Assembly: GCA_013360585.1 (NCBI GenBank) | Contig: JABWBH010000032.1 | Span: forward strand, 1-48,253 | Source: Phycisphaerae bacterium | Lineage (GTDB): Bacteria; Planctomycetota; Phycisphaerae; UBA1845 | Reading direction: 5' to 3' | Length of the DNA: 48,253 bases | In this document: positions 35,422-48,141 of the stretch, piece after piece | Layout of the letters: every line of letters begins with the position of its first letter | Numbering within the stretch: position 1 is the first letter of the stretch | The notes under the pieces: model-generated | Database searches by the model: none | What the model was told of the DNA's origin: nothing | What the model saw: only the letters and a program-made list of their open reading frames with translations | Program-made: the position numbers and the translations under genes

Positions 35422-35964
35422 ATTCAGTCGGTTGGCAAGGAGCGGGGTTTCAAGGGGGGGCGGGCGGCGCGGCGGCGACGATGCTCGGCGCGTTTCCCAG
35501 CACAACCGAGGGAGGGGCGCGTTGCGCAGGGTGGACAGGATCCTCGGCGCGGCGTCGCGTTCGGACCCGGTGGGGATCCTCGGCGCAGGTTGCGTCACGG
35601 ACATGGAACACCGGGGCGTTAATGTCCCGGGGTTTGCGCGTGAGCCGCGGCAAAGTCGTCGCCTGACCAGGCATCCTCCTATCCTGAAAGCGTTTGCAGC
35701 CTTCAAGAAGAAACCGGACGTCTTGTCTTCCTATCTCATTCCGGACATCCCGGACGATTCCTGTTCTGTTGCCCCCGGGTTTATGAAATCGCGCCGTCAG
35801 AAACGGAGAAAACCAAGCTTAGCGCATTTTCTCCCGAAGTCACACGTCGCGTTAGCGCACCCTTAATGCGCTGCGCCGAGAAGAGCCGCCGTGCGGTCGC
35901 GGCACGTTGGCGGCCCCCGGGCGCGGGGGTCGCCGCGGATCAGCGGATTCGGTCCGGAAGAGGC

Positions 35965-35982
35965 GTGTCAACTTAGTGACAC
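35965..35982. promoter_or_regulatory. Palindrome upstream of the pseudopilin gene
   Basis: GTGTCA-ACTTAG-TGACAC is a 6-bp inverted repeat with a 6-base centre, about 100 bp before the pseudopilin start, followed by TTTTGTCTT. It could be an operator or a short terminator-like hairpin. Confidence 0.4.
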
Positions 35983-36083
35983 TTTTGTCTTACGTTCAAG
36001 CAGTCCACATGAAGGGAAGCCAGACTCCTCCGAGGCGCGGTGGGGCGGGTGCTTCCCCGGTTTCAACCCAAGGAGTTTCGAGT

Positions 36084-37166
36084 ATGAGGAATCCCCAGGT
36101 TTGGTCGTCCGGGAGGAGCGGGCGCGTCGTCGCTCGGCGAGGCGCGTTTACGCTGATCGAGTTGCTGGTCGTCATCGCGATCATCGCGTTGCTGATTTCG
36201 ATCCTGCTGCCCAGCCTGACGGCGGCGCGGAAGCAGGCGCGGGCGGTCAAGTGTGCGACGCATGCGCGGCAGGTGGGCACGGCGATGGCGAGCTTTCTCG
36301 CGGAAAACGGCGGGAAATACCCGTCGGCGTACGTCTACCCGAAGGACAAGGAAGGCACGTTCGATTACGAAGAGCAGGACGAAGCCAGGCCCTTCGGCTA
36401 CCTGCACTGGAGCTGGTTCCTGTATGACTCGGGCAAGGCGGACGAAGAGGCGTTCACCTGTCCGGAGCTTGCCAACGGCGGAACGCCGCGCACGAATCCC
36501 GGCGACGATCCGGAGGACTGGGAGAGCACGCCGCAGCAGCAGGTGGATCAGAACGGCAACGGTCCGCCGGGCGTCCTCGAGGACAAGCAGGCGCCGCGTC
36601 TGGCGTTCGCCGGCAATGCGGCGATTTTTCCGCGAAACAAGTTCACCACGCTCTTGTCGGGCGGACCGCGGGTCAATCAGCTTGTGTCGGACGGCTGGAT
36701 CAAGGGTCCGTCCGGAACGATCCTTCTGACGGAGTATTACGAGAACTGGATCGGCAGCGCGATTCAGGAGAGCGGCGGGCTGAACAGTCGCAGCCACCGC
36801 TCGATCAACCCCTTCTACCACATCGGTTACGGCACGGACGAGTATCAGGCGCCGCTGAACGCGCCGGGCTTCGTTTACGGGGACGATCAGGATCAGCGGG
36901 AGTTCTTCGGCATCCGCAAGACGAGCGTGATCAAGAACAAGGCCGGTCTGATCGAGGGCAGCGCCGGACCGGAGACGAACGCGGTCGGGCGGCACCATCC
37001 CGGTGGCGGCGAGTTTGCGAAGCTTTACGGCGGAACTTCGAACTTCCTCTTCTGCGACGGGCACGTCGAGAAGAAGCACGTCATCGAGACGCTGCGCAAG
37101 CGGGAGTGGGGCGACCGGTATTACGCGATCACCGGCGAGAACGCGGTGCTCAACGCATTCAAGTAA
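36084..37166 (+). CDS. Type II secretion-like pseudopilin
   Basis: The 360-residue protein has a prepilin leader ending ARRG, followed by the type IV-like helix AFTLIELLVVIAIIALL, with Glu at mature position 5. The large globular domain ends with FLFCDGHVEKKHV, the H-X9-DG-like C-terminal feature of planctomycete and verrucomicrobial pseudopilins. It would be processed by a PilD-type peptidase, not by the Tad peptidase of this window. AAGGAG is 8 nt before the ATG at 36084. Its neighbour is a secreted dockerin protein 116 nt downstream on the same strand, so the two may be co-expressed. Confidence 0.9.
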   Translation: MRNPQVWSSGRSGRVVARRGAFTLIELLVVIAIIALLISILLPSLTAARKQARAVKCATHARQVGTAMASFLAENGGKYPSAYVYPKDKEGTFDYEEQDEARPFGYLHWSWFLYDSGKADEEAFTCPELANGGTPRTNPGDDPEDWESTPQQQVDQNGNGPPGVLEDKQAPRLAFAGNAAIFPRNKFTTLLSGGPRVNQLVSDGWIKGPSGTILLTEYYENWIGSAIQESGGLNSRSHRSINPFYHIGYGTDEYQAPLNAPGFVYGDDQDQREFFGIRKTSVIKNKAGLIEGSAGPETNAVGRHHPGGGEFAKLYGGTSNFLFCDGHVEKKHVIETLRKREWGDRYYAITGENAVLNAFK

Positions 37167-37282: not shown

Positions 37283-40099
37283 ATGATGCAGAAGAAGAGA
37301 GTGGGGACAACCGCGGGTCTGCTGGCGGCGATGGCGTCCGTCTGCGCCGTGGTGGCGCAGGCGGCGGCCGACGTGAACGTGCAGGGCGGGCAGGTGAACG
37401 GCGCCGGGGCGACGCTGTTCGTGGACTTCTTCAAGGTTCCCGCGTCGACGAACGACGATCTGGGCTGCAACGGCGCGATCGGTGTGGACGGCGATCTGGA
37501 TTGCCTCGGCAACGGCTACTACGGGTTCGACATCGGGCGTCTCAATTGCGGACAGAACCCGGTGGACCAGCTCGCGCCGTTCTTCGATCCGGGAGACGAC
37601 TGGACCGGGTGGTGGCTGTTCCAGTACCGCAGCGTCGGGTCGGTCGAGGGCTTCGGCGAGTTCATCTCGTACCAGACTTGCGGGACGATCCCGCAGGCGA
37701 TTCCGGCGGAGGCGGGTCTGATCAACCGCTTTGAGTTCGCCCGTCAGGGCAACTGGACGTGGGGCGGTCCCTTCGCGGACTGCGACGGCGACGGCGACAC
37801 CAGCGACGAGAGCGGCACGCCCGTGTGTCCGCAGACGATCGACTTCGGGTTCACCGACGTGGTCGGTTCGTGGGCGGTGCGCACCGGGGACGAGTCCAAC
37901 GGGTTCTGGAGCCGCAAACCGACCGAGGATGGTTACGGCTGGAACTTCATCCCGTCGAGCAGCGGGTTCATCAGCCGGCTTCAGTCGCTGGGGCGAGATT
38001 GCGATGGAAACGGTTCGGAGGAGACGTTCCTCAACACGAACACGAGCAACCCGGATGAGCAGACGATGTTCGGGTTCTCGGTGGCGTGGGTTCCGATCGT
38101 TCCGATCGCCAACCGCGGCACGGGCGTTGAGAACCTGAGGATGACGGAGTTTCAGCACCTGATGGTCGCCGGGCGCATGCCCAGCGGCGAGAACCTCGTG
38201 GGCGTGACGCGCGACGTCGGGTCGGGCACGCGCAACGGCGAGATGAACACGGCAGGGATCGATCCGGCGTGGGGTCGCGGCGACAACCTCGGCCCGCGCT
38301 TCGACGACGGAAACATTGCGAATCTCGGACCGAAGCACCAGCCGACCAACGGCGGCGGATCGAGCAACGTGGAGGACGTGACCCGCAACCGCCGGCTCGG
38401 GCTGGGATACACGGGGCTTGCTGGAGGCAGCCGCGCCGCGCGTGACGCCTTGAACGGCGTGTACGAAATCCTCAACCTGATGAACGACCACGCCGGGGGA
38501 ACGCAGTACGTGCGTCCCGAGGTGCGTGACGACAATAACCCGAACTTCAGTCCGATCCTGGACAACGGCGATCCGAACACCGGCTGGCGTCTCGGCGGGA
38601 CCGGGACGTTTTCGATGATCGGCGACTTCCGTCAGACCGATCCGGACGCGCCGGACTACATGGACAATCAGGCGGCGGCGGACTACTTCCGCAACCTGGA
38701 GTGCAGCGTGTTCAACTTCCAGGCTGGATTCGATCGCGACGAGGTGAACAACATGCCGGGGCAGTACCTGGCGCTGACGTTCTTCCTGCTGGCGGGGATG
38801 GACTCCCTGCCGCTGGACGAGGATCCGACGCTCTTTGTTCCGAACGTCAACCTGAATCAGCAGCTTCAGGATTACACGCGAGAGAACAACGGGCTGGAGA
38901 TCGGCCAGGACACGCCGAGGTTCGGCAGCGTGAACATCGCCGGTTTCGTTCCGCGCCGCGTGTCGAATCCGGACTTCGACAATGACGGGACGCCGGACGG
39001 GTACTCGGACGGCAGCATGAACGGGAACTACTACAACCCGCAGACGGGCGTGTACGACGTTTCCAACAGTTTCCGCCTCAACGAGCGCAACCAGATTTCG
39101 GGCGACTTCAACAACGACAAGGTCCGCAACGTCAACGACATCGCGGGCCTGATGTCGGCGATCAACAACCCGCGCGGTTACCAGGCAGGCGTCGATTTCG
39201 GCGGGCGGCGCGAGAACATGCCGTTCTCGGGCGACTACGTCATCGTCGAGATCATCGGCGACTTCGACGGCGACGGGAACTTCAATTCCCGCGACGTGCG
39301 CTACTTCGCGGACGGTCTGGCGATGCAGAGCGGACGCCTCAACCGTCAGGAAGGCTTCACCCGCGTCGATCATGAGTGGGAGAACCTCACCGGAAACGGC
39401 AACTACTTCGGCACGACGCTGGCGACCGGTGTTCCGTATACGGCCGGCGCGTCCCGCGCGGACATCGCGGGCGGTGCGGACCCGATTCCGGGCGCGTATC
39501 CGAACGGACACGACGGCGAGGTCGGTTGCGCCGACATCACCTACGTGTACGCCAACTTCGGCGATTACACGGACCTTGACGTGGCGGTGTTCATCGACCT
39601 GTCGGCGGACATGAACGGCGACCTGGTGATTGATCAGGCTGACGTGGATGCGATCGTTCAGGGCATCCTCTGCACCGAGTACGGCGACGCCGATCTCGAC
39701 GGCGACGTGGATGACGACGATCGCAATCTGGTCCGCGACAATCGCGGGACGGAGAACGCGAGCTGGTGCGACGGCGACCTCAACGGCGACGGGCGCGTGA
39801 CCAACGCCGATGTGGCGATCGTCGATGCGAACCTCGGGTTCACCAGCGACTGTTTCGGCGGCGGCTGCAACGGCGGCGAGTCGCTGAAGTTCAAGGGTTG
39901 CCGCAACAACCGGGCGAAGGCCGTCCTCAAAAACGGCACGCCGGGGCAGACGTACACGTTCGTGCTCAACGGCGGCGAGCAGACGTTGGAAGACGTTGCG
40001 AGCAGCCGCGGCAAGGCCGTGGTGACGTTCACCGGACTTCCGCTCGGTCGTAACGAGGTCGAGTCGTGCGGGCTGACCTCTCGAACGACGTGCGAGTGA
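37283..40099 (+). CDS. Secreted PstS-like binding protein with dockerin repeats
   Basis: This 938-residue protein has a signal peptide (about 1-29, ending VVAQAAAD). The first 560 residues resemble phosphate-binding PstS proteins: VNGAGATLFVDFF near 38, FGFTDVVGSWAV, and VPIANRGTGVENLRMTEFQH leading to TRDVGSGTRNGEM near 310. The last fits the SGTR ligand loop. Five dockerin/EF-hand-like loops follow, at about 607 (DFNNDKVRNVND), 659 (DFDGDGNFNSRD), 774 (DMNGDLVIDQAD), 800 (DADLDGDVDDDD) and 831 (DLNGDGRVTNAD). A C-terminal module (about 874-938) starts with Cys and ends TTCE. AGGAG precedes the ATG. Phosphate binding is inference; the domain is larger and more loop-rich than classical PstS. 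Confidence 0.8.
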   Translation: MMQKKRVGTTAGLLAAMASVCAVVAQAAADVNVQGGQVNGAGATLFVDFFKVPASTNDDLGCNGAIGVDGDLDCLGNGYYGFDIGRLNCGQNPVDQLAPFFDPGDDWTGWWLFQYRSVGSVEGFGEFISYQTCGTIPQAIPAEAGLINRFEFARQGNWTWGGPFADCDGDGDTSDESGTPVCPQTIDFGFTDVVGSWAVRTGDESNGFWSRKPTEDGYGWNFIPSSSGFISRLQSLGRDCDGNGSEETFLNTNTSNPDEQTMFGFSVAWVPIVPIANRGTGVENLRMTEFQHLMVAGRMPSGENLVGVTRDVGSGTRNGEMNTAGIDPAWGRGDNLGPRFDDGNIANLGPKHQPTNGGGSSNVEDVTRNRRLGLGYTGLAGGSRAARDALNGVYEILNLMNDHAGGTQYVRPEVRDDNNPNFSPILDNGDPNTGWRLGGTGTFSMIGDFRQTDPDAPDYMDNQAAADYFRNLECSVFNFQAGFDRDEVNNMPGQYLALTFFLLAGMDSLPLDEDPTLFVPNVNLNQQLQDYTRENNGLEIGQDTPRFGSVNIAGFVPRRVSNPDFDNDGTPDGYSDGSMNGNYYNPQTGVYDVSNSFRLNERNQISGDFNNDKVRNVNDIAGLMSAINNPRGYQAGVDFGGRRENMPFSGDYVIVEIIGDFDGDGNFNSRDVRYFADGLAMQSGRLNRQEGFTRVDHEWENLTGNGNYFGTTLATGVPYTAGASRADIAGGADPIPGAYPNGHDGEVGCADITYVYANFGDYTDLDVAVFIDLSADMNGDLVIDQADVDAIVQGILCTEYGDADLDGDVDDDDRNLVRDNRGTENASWCDGDLNGDGRVTNADVAIVDANLGFTSDCFGGGCNGGESLKFKGCRNNRAKAVLKNGTPGQTYTFVLNGGEQTLEDVASSRGKAVVTFTGLPLGRNEVESCGLTSRTTCE

Positions 40100-46032: not shown

Positions 46033-48141
46033 TTACGTGCAGGGTTTCTTCACCTTGGACGAGATTCGGCAGCGCTCGATCTCCACGTAGTGCGGGCCAT
46101 CCGCGCAGTCGAAGCTCGTAAACGATACACCAGCTTTGCCTTTAGGCCCGGTGGTCACGCTCACGAAATCCATCACCGTCCCCGACGCGTCTTCCAAAAG
46201 CAGCTCGTAGGCGGTCGATGGCGCGAACCGCACGAGCTTGACCTCGATCGTGTGACCCGCCTGGTAAGTGGCTCTTATTTTGCCCGCACAATCGGAGGCG
46301 ACCGCCGCGATCCCCTTGATCTCATAGCCGATGTCGCCGCGGTCCGAATCCGTGCAACATTCGCCCATGAGGTCAACGTCCCACAGATTGAACCGTGCCC
46401 CCAGAAAGTTGTCATTGGTGTCGAACTCAATGGAGCGGTTGTTGACGTTGCAATCGCCGATGACCTCCGTAATGCACTTATCCAGGTTAACTCCGTAGAA
46501 TCTGAAAGTGCCCATGTTGCCGTCCAGACCGTACAGGCGTCCGCAACGATCGAGCGTCAGCCCTTGGACATCCGTCAGGCCATCGAATTCACAGGTGAAA
46601 TCGTACGTGCCGGTCTCCGGATCGATTCGATAGAGAAAATCGTTGTCCGTGTCGCCGGCATCGAGCGCCGCGATGAACACGCCGTCGTCGGATATGGCCA
46701 ATCCCCTGACGGCGATTCCCTGGTCCGGCACCGTCAGGGGCGTAACGTCAGGCGTTTCGGGTGATTCCGGGTACACCTGGATGAGCTTGTTCCGATCACG
46801 CATCACAAAGATATTCCCGTCCTTGTCGGCAGCCATGGCATCGCCGGCGTAGCCGATGTTGCCCAGAAGCGTCCCTTCACCTGTCTCCTTGTTGATGTCG
46901 ACAAAGTTCCCGTCGATGGTGACGCCATAGAGCTTGGAGGGATTGGGCTGAAAGTCCGTACTGTCGAGGGCGATGGCGTCGATGTTGTCCACGAGAACGG
47001 CATCGTCCTCGTAGATCGTGACGTAACTTCCCGTCAGCGCCGATCCATAGACGACGTTGGGCTTAAGACCGCCTGACTCATCCACGGAGCTGGTCAACGG
47101 ATCGTCGGCATCGACACTGAAGAGCATCACGAACACGCCGCCATTCCAGCAGAATTGAAACGCGTCAATGTCAACACGCGCAGGAAGCCCAAGGTGTACC
47201 TCGGGGCGCACCATCGAAATCGGGGAGGAGCCAATCATGGGAGCGTTCAGATAGATTACCCCCGGTTCAAGGCCGAAGTGCGCCTCATGATCGGCGGAGA
47301 AGTAGAGGTTGCTGGCGCCTTGGGTGATGTAGTCGATGGAATCGATGTCGTCGTCGAGTTCCTCGTTCACATCGGGATGGCCGCGCAACTCCTGGTGAAC
47401 CCACTCTTCGTTGCCGATGGGGAAACGGGTCACCGTGATGCACGATCCGCCCGCACACGTCACACGCACGCCGATGACTTCATCCCGTCCCAGGGTGCGT
47501 CCATACGTCGCGCCCGACCCTGCAGTGCTGTTCACCGGCACGTTTCCAGCCACGTCAGGCCAGCCACTGGCGCCGTCATCATCAAACGAAATGAAAAAGG
47601 AGTTGATGTTGAAGATGTTGTTGCGCTCCGACGACGAAAAGTCCGACTGCAGCAGCGGCGTGGGCAGCGGAGCATTGGGATTGAACCCGAGCAGCCGCAG
47701 ATCCACATTGAGCAGGTCATGCCCATCCAAATCGAAGAACGGCAGGTAGCAATCCTGGACGTCCGGATCGCAACCGTCGCCCACAGGTACGGCTGAACCA
47801 TAGCTGGAATCCGGAGCAACGGGAGCGGGATCGAACATCAACCCCAGGAACCGTTCGTCGTCCCCGATGCCATCCTGTCCGCCGGTCACTCCGCAAGCGG
47901 TGAGCGCCGCGTAGGCGTTGACGTAATCATAGAGGTCTCCCGGATCGAACCCTTTGGCTGGACCAGCGACCGGCGAGCTCAACTCCCGCGCCGAACCAAT
48001 ATCGAGCGAGAACGTGAGTTGGCACGCGCCATCGCAGTCGATCTCGAAGTCGTTGCCTGAAATTTGAGGAGCGGGCGCCGCCCGGACCGCCGTCCCCACG
48101 AACGCAAGGATCAAAGCACTGATTCGATGCCTCGTACTCAT
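46033..48141 (-). CDS. Large secreted protein, probable propeller domain
   Basis: This 702-residue protein has a signal peptide (SALILAFVGTAVRAAPAP). The N-terminal half (about 25-330) is Asp/Gly-rich and beta-like. The middle has repeats typical of propellers, such as KLYGVTIDGNFVDINKETGE, AMAADKDGNIFVMRDRNKLI, GLAISDDGVFIAALDAGD and GLTLDRCGRLYGLDGNMG. Cysteines are frequent, which suggests disulfides. A C-terminal module (about 618-702) starts at Cys, contains GKAGVSFTSF and VEIERCRISS, and ends KKPCT. It resembles the end of the dockerin protein at 37283. GGGGAGG is 6 nt before the ATG. The codon choice appears less GC-rich than in its neighbours. Confidence 0.82.
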   Translation of the reverse strand: MSTRHRISALILAFVGTAVRAAPAPQISGNDFEIDCDGACQLTFSLDIGSARELSSPVAGPAKGFDPGDLYDYVNAYAALTACGVTGGQDGIGDDERFLGLMFDPAPVAPDSSYGSAVPVGDGCDPDVQDCYLPFFDLDGHDLLNVDLRLLGFNPNAPLPTPLLQSDFSSSERNNIFNINSFFISFDDDGASGWPDVAGNVPVNSTAGSGATYGRTLGRDEVIGVRVTCAGGSCITVTRFPIGNEEWVHQELRGHPDVNEELDDDIDSIDYITQGASNLYFSADHEAHFGLEPGVIYLNAPMIGSSPISMVRPEVHLGLPARVDIDAFQFCWNGGVFVMLFSVDADDPLTSSVDESGGLKPNVVYGSALTGSYVTIYEDDAVLVDNIDAIALDSTDFQPNPSKLYGVTIDGNFVDINKETGEGTLLGNIGYAGDAMAADKDGNIFVMRDRNKLIQVYPESPETPDVTPLTVPDQGIAVRGLAISDDGVFIAALDAGDTDNDFLYRIDPETGTYDFTCEFDGLTDVQGLTLDRCGRLYGLDGNMGTFRFYGVNLDKCITEVIGDCNVNNRSIEFDTNDNFLGARFNLWDVDLMGECCTDSDRGDIGYEIKGIAAVASDCAGKIRATYQAGHTIEVKLVRFAPSTAYELLLEDASGTVMDFVSVTTGPKGKAGVSFTSFDCADGPHYVEIERCRISSKVKKPCT

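Follow-up and report, generated by a model that had tools for sequence, protein, structure and literature searches.

A cysteine-rich, immunoglobulin-like C-terminal tail on secreted proteins of one Phycisphaerae genus, and its relation to the dockerin-like ends of sister genera

C-terminal modules for sorting and docking shape the way in which a whole secretome arrives at the cell surface, and in our judgement the replacement of an old module of this kind by a new one is rarely caught under way. Among the described systems, the C-terminal domain (CTD) of the type IX secretion system (T9SS) protein RgpB is reported to fold as an immunoglobulin-like (Ig-like) sandwich of seven strands (PMC4804311). 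For the Nemodlikiaceae, a Phycisphaerae family other than the one treated here, a cohesin/dockerin surface complex with M12B and M14 peptidases has been proposed under the name of "planctosome" (PMC6461901). Here, we analyze a stretch of 48,253 nucleotides from a Phycisphaerae bacterium (contig JABWBH010000032.1 of assembly GCA_013360585.1; the window, hereafter), in which two secreted proteins, A and B, end in Ig-like tails of about 80 residues that sequence comparison assigns to one domain family. In the genomes searched this family is restricted to a single Phycisphaerae genus, and in gene samples it stands where related proteins of sister genera most often bear a dockerin-like end.

Tail A occupies residues 859-938 of protein A (39857..40096, plus strand) and has cysteines at residues 862 (C1), 873 (C2), 929 (C3) and 937 (C4). 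The initial annotation had drawn the module at residues 874-938; the tail is present there, but it begins some 15 residues earlier and so takes in the additional cysteine C1. A 71-residue query from tail A gave 42 matches at E <= 10 in the window's own genome (G000; 4.24 Mb in 84 contigs), and in each of the 30 loci fetched the match closed an open frame, the stop coming 0-21 residues later. A profile made from those 30 tails (A1) listed 88 places at E <= 10, at least 78 of them at E <= 1e-3. With two B-type places added, 90 open reading frames (ORFs) were examined; each had one domain that passed the 5-bit listing line, ending 0-3 residues from the stop in 85 of them. The end-distance rule was passed by 86, of which C43 was left out for a stop inside its frame, and three of the 85 are frames of fewer than 100 residues (C61, C28:326 and C9). 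The many further C-terminal matches that the annotation had expected of a tail profile thus exist. Apart from C43, the exceptions are a probable false hit (C3:42434), a domain that ends 12 residues before the stop (C74:31247) and two copies away from the C-terminus that are considered below. The C74 locus (L165, G000:C74:31247-31435) carries a variant tail which may mark a further subfamily. At L307:289-2649 (G000:C3) a repeat protein has the tail domain in mid-protein, followed by more repeats, possibly as a fusion of two genes.

The five internal, broken or offset ORFs and a 47-aa fragment (C61) were dropped to give a set of 84 tails, from which four more were removed for the alignment A4 (80 tails) and three rows for the cysteine test (81 tails). 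By eye, their common pattern runs C-x-G-x-E, a second cysteine about 10 residues on, L-K-x-x-L, P-G, N-x-R-G-K-[AG], a third cysteine within [ES]-C-G and a fourth at the end. Every one of the 84 has a cysteine within its final five residues, and 48 end in Cys-Pro. Gene calls and signal peptides come from crude scripts, with start codons partly picked for a signal-peptide look; by this rule a signal-peptide-like N-terminus is found in 76 of 79 tail proteins, and in a 398-kb gene sample of G000 the tail occurs on 9 of 129 signal-peptide proteins and on none of 159 others.

What precedes the tail is diverse. The 79 N-terminal parts form 50 clusters with at most six members, so that the picture anticipated by the initial annotation, signal-peptide proteins with varied N-terminal parts, is what the genome holds. 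When 78 of these cargos were compared with Pfam, the 25 of 43 families listed included subtilases (4), BNR repeats (4), M12B reprolysin-like peptidases (2), PQQ (2), and M14, PAD, kelch, FG-GAP, PHB esterase and M23 (one each). Related cargo is found on the nearest tail in only 22 of 79 cases and, because the nearest tails are mostly on unrelated cargo, the sequences suggest that the tail has spread by being copied between genes as a module. At one locus (L306:7416-15818, G000:C80) five tail proteins follow one another, with tails up to 77% identical and N-terminal parts partly devoid of detected similarity; the row looks as if neighbors had exchanged the tail.

Tail B covers residues 615-702 of protein B (46036..46299, minus strand), with C1 at 618, C3 at 691, C4 at 701 and an extra cysteine at 679; it is counted, from its sequence, as a divergent subfamily with this extra cysteine and no C2. 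That the two C-terminal tails of the window correspond, as had been noted by eye, is confirmed, modestly by the direct pair and more strongly by profiles. Compared by BLASTP as a single pair, tails A and B share 16/56 identities (E 6e-5). The C-terminus of B reached 18.9 bits with a profile of 80 A-type tails from which B-types were absent, as against 7.2 at most in 1000 shuffles of B. Among 1057 control C-termini (from open frames of at least 150 aa in all six frames, many of them not genes) only one outscored B, at 21.7 bits, and this was C74:31247, itself a candidate member; the next scored 8.6. A comparison of 30 A-type with 4 B-type tails as profiles returned a probability of 97.1% (E 5e-11, 80 columns), as against 2-3% for reversed-profile controls. 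Tail B as a query in G000 finds three further C-terminal tails (C38, C37 and C73), two of which the A profile also finds (E 1e-5 and 9e-5). Against the membership of B weigh its missing C2 and the fact that the A profile did not list it in the search of G000 at E <= 10.

In a set of 40 genomes, comprising G000 and its relatives, with the best 139 candidates per genome scored, the four genomes of the genus (class Phycisphaerae) gave at least 78, 62, 97 and 107 tail matches at E <= 1e-3. Of the 36 other relatives G016 alone has a match, and the lineage specificity proposed in the annotation therefore holds in the genomes searched. This sole copy outside the genus (L274/L310, G016:C62:61588-61836) is also C-terminal. 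From 392 sampled genomes of the phylum, with the best 13 candidates per genome scored, at least three besides G000 yield one weak partial match each (E <= 1e-5). The tail-bearing records named in a scan with peptide patterns of one subfamily only, all metagenome-assembled genomes, are Phycisphaerae bacterium Bin_14R (G003), Phycisphaerales bacterium SJ659 (G002) and Planctomycetota bacterium BroJett003 (G001), for which a wider profile, with the best 150 candidates scored, gave at least 138, 139 and 81 matches, respectively, at E <= 1e-3. Of 33 distinct copies read at relatives' loci, 32 are C-terminal and the remaining one is cut by the end of the locus. No published description of the tail was found, as judged by titles and abstract openings in a literature coverage that leaves out most subscription journals.

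Both tails are predicted with high confidence to be seven-strand Ig-like sandwiches of the Ig/FN3-like class. The AlphaFold2 models have seven strands each, with pLDDT 95.5 and pTM 0.84 for tail A and pLDDT 94.4 and pTM 0.84 for tail B. The two models were compared through shared structures of the Protein Data Bank (PDB) in a VIA search: the best match of tail A is 6q9m_A (Z 9.0, rmsd 1.9, 72 aligned residues), the best match of tail B is 8wm1_A (Z 10.1, rmsd 2.1, 81 aligned), and on the same stretch of 8wm1_A tail A aligns with Z 8.5, rmsd 2.1 and 75 residues. To this extent the expectation of the same small beta-sandwich for both tails is borne out. Foldseek found no PDB fold for either tail at E <= 0.001, and among PDB sequences the best match was a 31-residue stretch of "Anti-Parallel Protein 10" (E 0.0016). 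The Ig/FN3-like fold is a common one and tells nothing of function. Of 81 tails, 76 have C1 together with C3, 4 have neither and 1 has a single one of the two (p 3e-6); this covariation supports a C1-C3 disulfide, and extra cysteines also occur in covarying pairs. By strand order C2 probably pairs with C4.

Gene samples of 0.4 Mb were compared from G000, from a sister genus of the same family (G007) and from a member of the same order (G034), the sister samples being of 400 kb each and chosen for long contigs. Clustering of C-termini that follow unrelated N-terminal parts gave two Ig-tail clusters of four proteins each in G000; the largest such cluster in the sisters was a dockerin-like module, on 15 proteins in G007 and on 7 in G034. 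Scored with a profile that was made from the 22 sister proteins it then counts, secreted proteins with a C-terminal dockerin-like module number 1 of 129 in G000, 15 of 107 in G007 and 7 of 119 in G034. Thirteen of the 79 tail cargos have a match in the sister samples at E <= 1e-8, sometimes a partial one: 11 hit a dockerin-ended protein, and of the other two matched proteins one has a hydrophobic stretch and arginines at its end and one has neither kind of end. Among secreted G000 proteins without a tail, 1 of 30 hit a dockerin-ended protein (p 1.5e-7), and when distinct sister proteins are counted the contrast is 6/8 versus 1/25 (p 1.7e-4). The clearest case is the cargo of C10:44950, for which the match to a 785-aa protein of G034 extends over residues 24-687 of 693 (E 3.6e-130). 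Since related cargo has either the tail or the dockerin-like end in the same position, tail and dockerin-like end probably do the same job. At the scale of whole genomes, with the best 121 candidates per genome scored, dockerin matches number at least 8, 6, 18 and 21 in the genus, whereas 20 further genera of the family have at least 16-120 (median 44.5); PEP-CTERM matches number 4, 4, 5 and 6 as against 2-59 (median 18.5). The rank tests on these counts (p 0.002 and 0.006) are descriptive only, since the genus represents one evolutionary event.

Protein A itself (37283..40099, plus strand; 938 aa in the ORF listing) has homologues beyond the genus. It has a putative signal peptide at 37283..37363 (plus strand), predicted from its sequence by a crude hydrophobicity rule, and directly before the tail a run of Asp-rich EF-hand/dockerin-like repeats at 39605..39838 (plus strand), recognized by eye, on which Pfam is silent. 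Pfam gives the protein no family at E <= 1, nor at E <= 0.01, and the label "dockerin/PstS-like" used in the annotation finds no confirmation there. Its 821-824 queried N-terminal residues are 77, 81 and 95% identical in the three other genomes of the genus, with the tail present in the matched frame of all three homologues; more distant homologues occur in other Phycisphaerae. Among the 12 homologues outside the genus with a readable end, nine end, by eye, in Asp-rich EF-hand-like repeats and three (L188, L191 and L194) in something else; a cohesin guessed by eye in L191 and L194 was dropped, there being no Pfam match at E <= 0.01. Cys-Pro ends without the tail domain occur in six of these 12 (L183, L187, L195, L196, L205 and L207). 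Terminal Cys-Pro as an older, order-wide signal was considered and rejected at the scale sampled, with 7 of 129 secreted proteins in G000 and none of 107 and 119 in the sisters. Just upstream of protein A, the ORF at 35907-37166 (plus strand) contains a prepilin-like segment, FTLIELLVVIAIIALL, identified by eye; such segments are common in planctomycetes. Protein B (46033..48141, minus strand; 702 aa) has a putative signal peptide at 48079..48141 (minus strand), read from the sequence by the same kind of crude rule, and weak Pfam matches to DUF4394, DUF6923 and UnbV_ASPIC, all below the cut-off.

Two small proteins consist of a signal peptide and the tail domain only. The first, of 99 aa (G000:C1:6982-7281, L301; C1:7045; also L302, L303 and L305), is syntenic in all four genomes of the genus, with neighbor families checked in G000; its gene is directly preceded by a histidine kinase gene and the gene of an NtrC-like response regulator, and genes for a larger tail protein and for an ABC transporter come after it. 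The small protein might serve as part of a receptor, as a competitor or as the ligand of a sensor. A prepilin-type protein precedes the kinase-regulator pair of this locus. The second, of 121 aa (G000:C24:9063-9428, L304; C24:9150), again has a histidine kinase and an NtrC-like regulator encoded upstream, separated from it by one 191-aa gene. As both domain-only genes follow such a pair, the 250 bases upstream of 78 tail genes were scanned for sigma-54 sites (score at least 8 of 10) with the -24/-12 consensus. Sites appeared before 1 of 78 tail genes and before 4 of 122 and 9 of 158 controls; there being no enrichment, a sigma-54 regulon was rejected. In PEP-CTERM systems the pairing of histidine kinase and NtrC-like regulator has been described as well (PMC1569441).

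The reading that we favor, at what we consider even chances, is that the tail is a folded recognition module, a disulfide-stapled Ig-like sandwich through which otherwise unrelated proteins exported by Sec dock, in this one genus, into a shared assembly on the cell surface or outside the cell. The signal peptide would take the protein over the inner membrane; the last 80 or so residues would then fold into the seven-strand sandwich, as the models of the two window tails predict with high confidence, closed by C1-C3 and probably C2-C4 disulfides and with its C-terminal strand ending at the last cysteine; and a common receptor or scaffold would bind the folded tail, taking over the role of the C-terminal dockerin-like modules of the sister genera. 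Docking is favored because dockerins are assembly modules, because a planctosome has been proposed and because the cargos of the tail include M12B and M14 peptidases. The initial annotation had suggested a lineage-specific tag for sorting, anchoring or secretion; the support it looked for is found, the role as a tag we infer, and the exchange between dockerin-like end and tail favors anchoring or assembly. The main rival, which we rank behind docking and consider improbable, is that the tail is an outer-membrane export signal, read by a translocon in the manner of a type IX CTD and perhaps removed by cleavage while the protein crosses or afterwards. The strictly C-terminal position, the signal peptides and the varied cargo would suit it, as would the fold, since a seven-strand Ig-like sandwich is just what is described for RgpB (PMC4804311). 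Yet homologous cargo in sister genera has a dockerin-like end in place of the tail, so that export as such does not need the tail unless the dockerin-like end is itself the export signal, and among the eight NCBIfam families listed for 30 tails at E <= 1 (HMMER filters drop most matches above E 0.1) none is a T9SS sorting-domain model.

Somewhat less probable still is an ordinary Ig-like accessory domain, which would stabilize the protein as a cap or bind a ligand and would have multiplied by chance in the one genus, with no part in sorting or assembly. The fold is frequent enough, 12 of 30 tails match Big_3_5 and 5 of 30 Big_1 at E <= 1 (none over the cut-off), and internal and stand-alone copies exist; but there is one copy per protein, C-terminal in 85 of 90, and a chance spread would not predict a swap with another C-terminal module on related cargo. 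Covalent anchoring, by a bond between the last cysteine and a protein of the wall or matrix, is in our view very improbable. The terminal cysteine found throughout the set speaks for it, and so do the C-X* endings, on 10 of 129 secreted proteins in the G000 sample and on none of the 107 and 119 of the sisters. The covariation, for its part, fits internal pairs, C1 with C3 and the extra cysteines with each other, and if C2 and C4 are paired as strand order suggests, no free cysteine would be left in the common form of the tail.

Several observations weigh against docking by a replacement module. Apart from the clearest swap, the sister matches are local or partial, several of the sister proteins are much longer than the tail cargo, and not all are orthologues. 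Five sister dockerin-like ends were compared with Pfam: two match no dockerin model, and the scores of the other three, 17-19 bits, stay below the cut-off of 22.9, so that any cohesin binding by these ends is putative. In protein A, where EF-hand-like stretch and tail are both present, the tail was added and not swapped. The dockerin and PEP-CTERM counts of the genus overlap the low end of the other genera, and each genus genome still has two exosortase matches along with its 4-6 PEP-CTERM matches. A pure tag would predict neither the internal copy at C3:1315 and the one near the N-terminus at C27:32301 nor the two nearly domain-only proteins, and the reading names no receptor, scaffold or processing enzyme. 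With these points taken into account, we put at even odds the view that the tail arose recently as a C-terminal docking tag and took the place of dockerin-like ends in surface assembly. The broader proposal of a new protein-display system, in which the genus evolved its own folded tag and a dedicated receptor or translocon, relabelling much of its secretome by replacing dockerin-like ends and perhaps some PEP-CTERM-type ends, is tentative and falls a little short of that. A dockerin-like end and an unrelated Ig-like tail on related cargo make the role of planctomycete exoprotein ends directly testable, and the tail profile brings together 62 to 139 matches in each genome that probably belong to one functional set.

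In Pfam no tail of 31 exceeds a cut-off; the best scores are 25.0 bits for Big_3_5 (L006; cut-off 35.5) and 22.4 for Big_1 (L026; cut-off 34.9), tail A scores 16.7 bits, and tail B matches no family at E <= 0.05. NCBIfam offers no fitting family, PEP-CTERM models being likewise missing from the eight listed, and PHROGs gives 0 families for 30 tails at E <= 0.001. With Big_3_5 and Big_1 the tail shares a probable fold class, unlike them in being below cut-off, single, almost always C-terminal and equipped with fixed cysteines; accessory Ig domains are often tandem or internal. Like PEP-CTERM, it would be one C-terminal signal on many secreted proteins per genome with a sporadic distribution (PMC1569441), but it is a folded domain where PEP-CTERM is described as a PEP motif, transmembrane helix and basic cluster (PMC1569441), and its genes lack the sigma-54 enrichment. 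The T9SS CTD, as in RgpB of Porphyromonas gingivalis, is also a small C-terminal domain on many Sec-exported proteins, with the seven-strand Ig-like sandwich that is predicted for the tail (PMC4804311); the tail differs in its cysteines, one of them at the very end, in having no NCBIfam sequence-family match and in sister-genus homologues that do without it. T9SS CTD structures were not among the best 50 structural matches listed for each tail, which excludes nothing, and SprA gave 0 matches in 21 genomes in a search whose controls likewise gave none, so that it says nothing on absence. From type I dockerins the tail differs as a sandwich does from paired EF-hands: none of 31 tails has a dockerin match in Pfam, no Asp-rich loops are seen by eye, and A- and B-type profiles match the sister dockerin-like profile with probabilities of 0.0% and 0.1%. 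No cohesin partner was found in this genus, where no genome-wide cohesin search was made. With the dockerins of the proposed planctosome (PMC6461901) the tail has in common that it is a module on secreted Phycisphaerae proteins, and that M12B and M14 peptidases, the cargo proposed for the planctosome, are among those that carry it.

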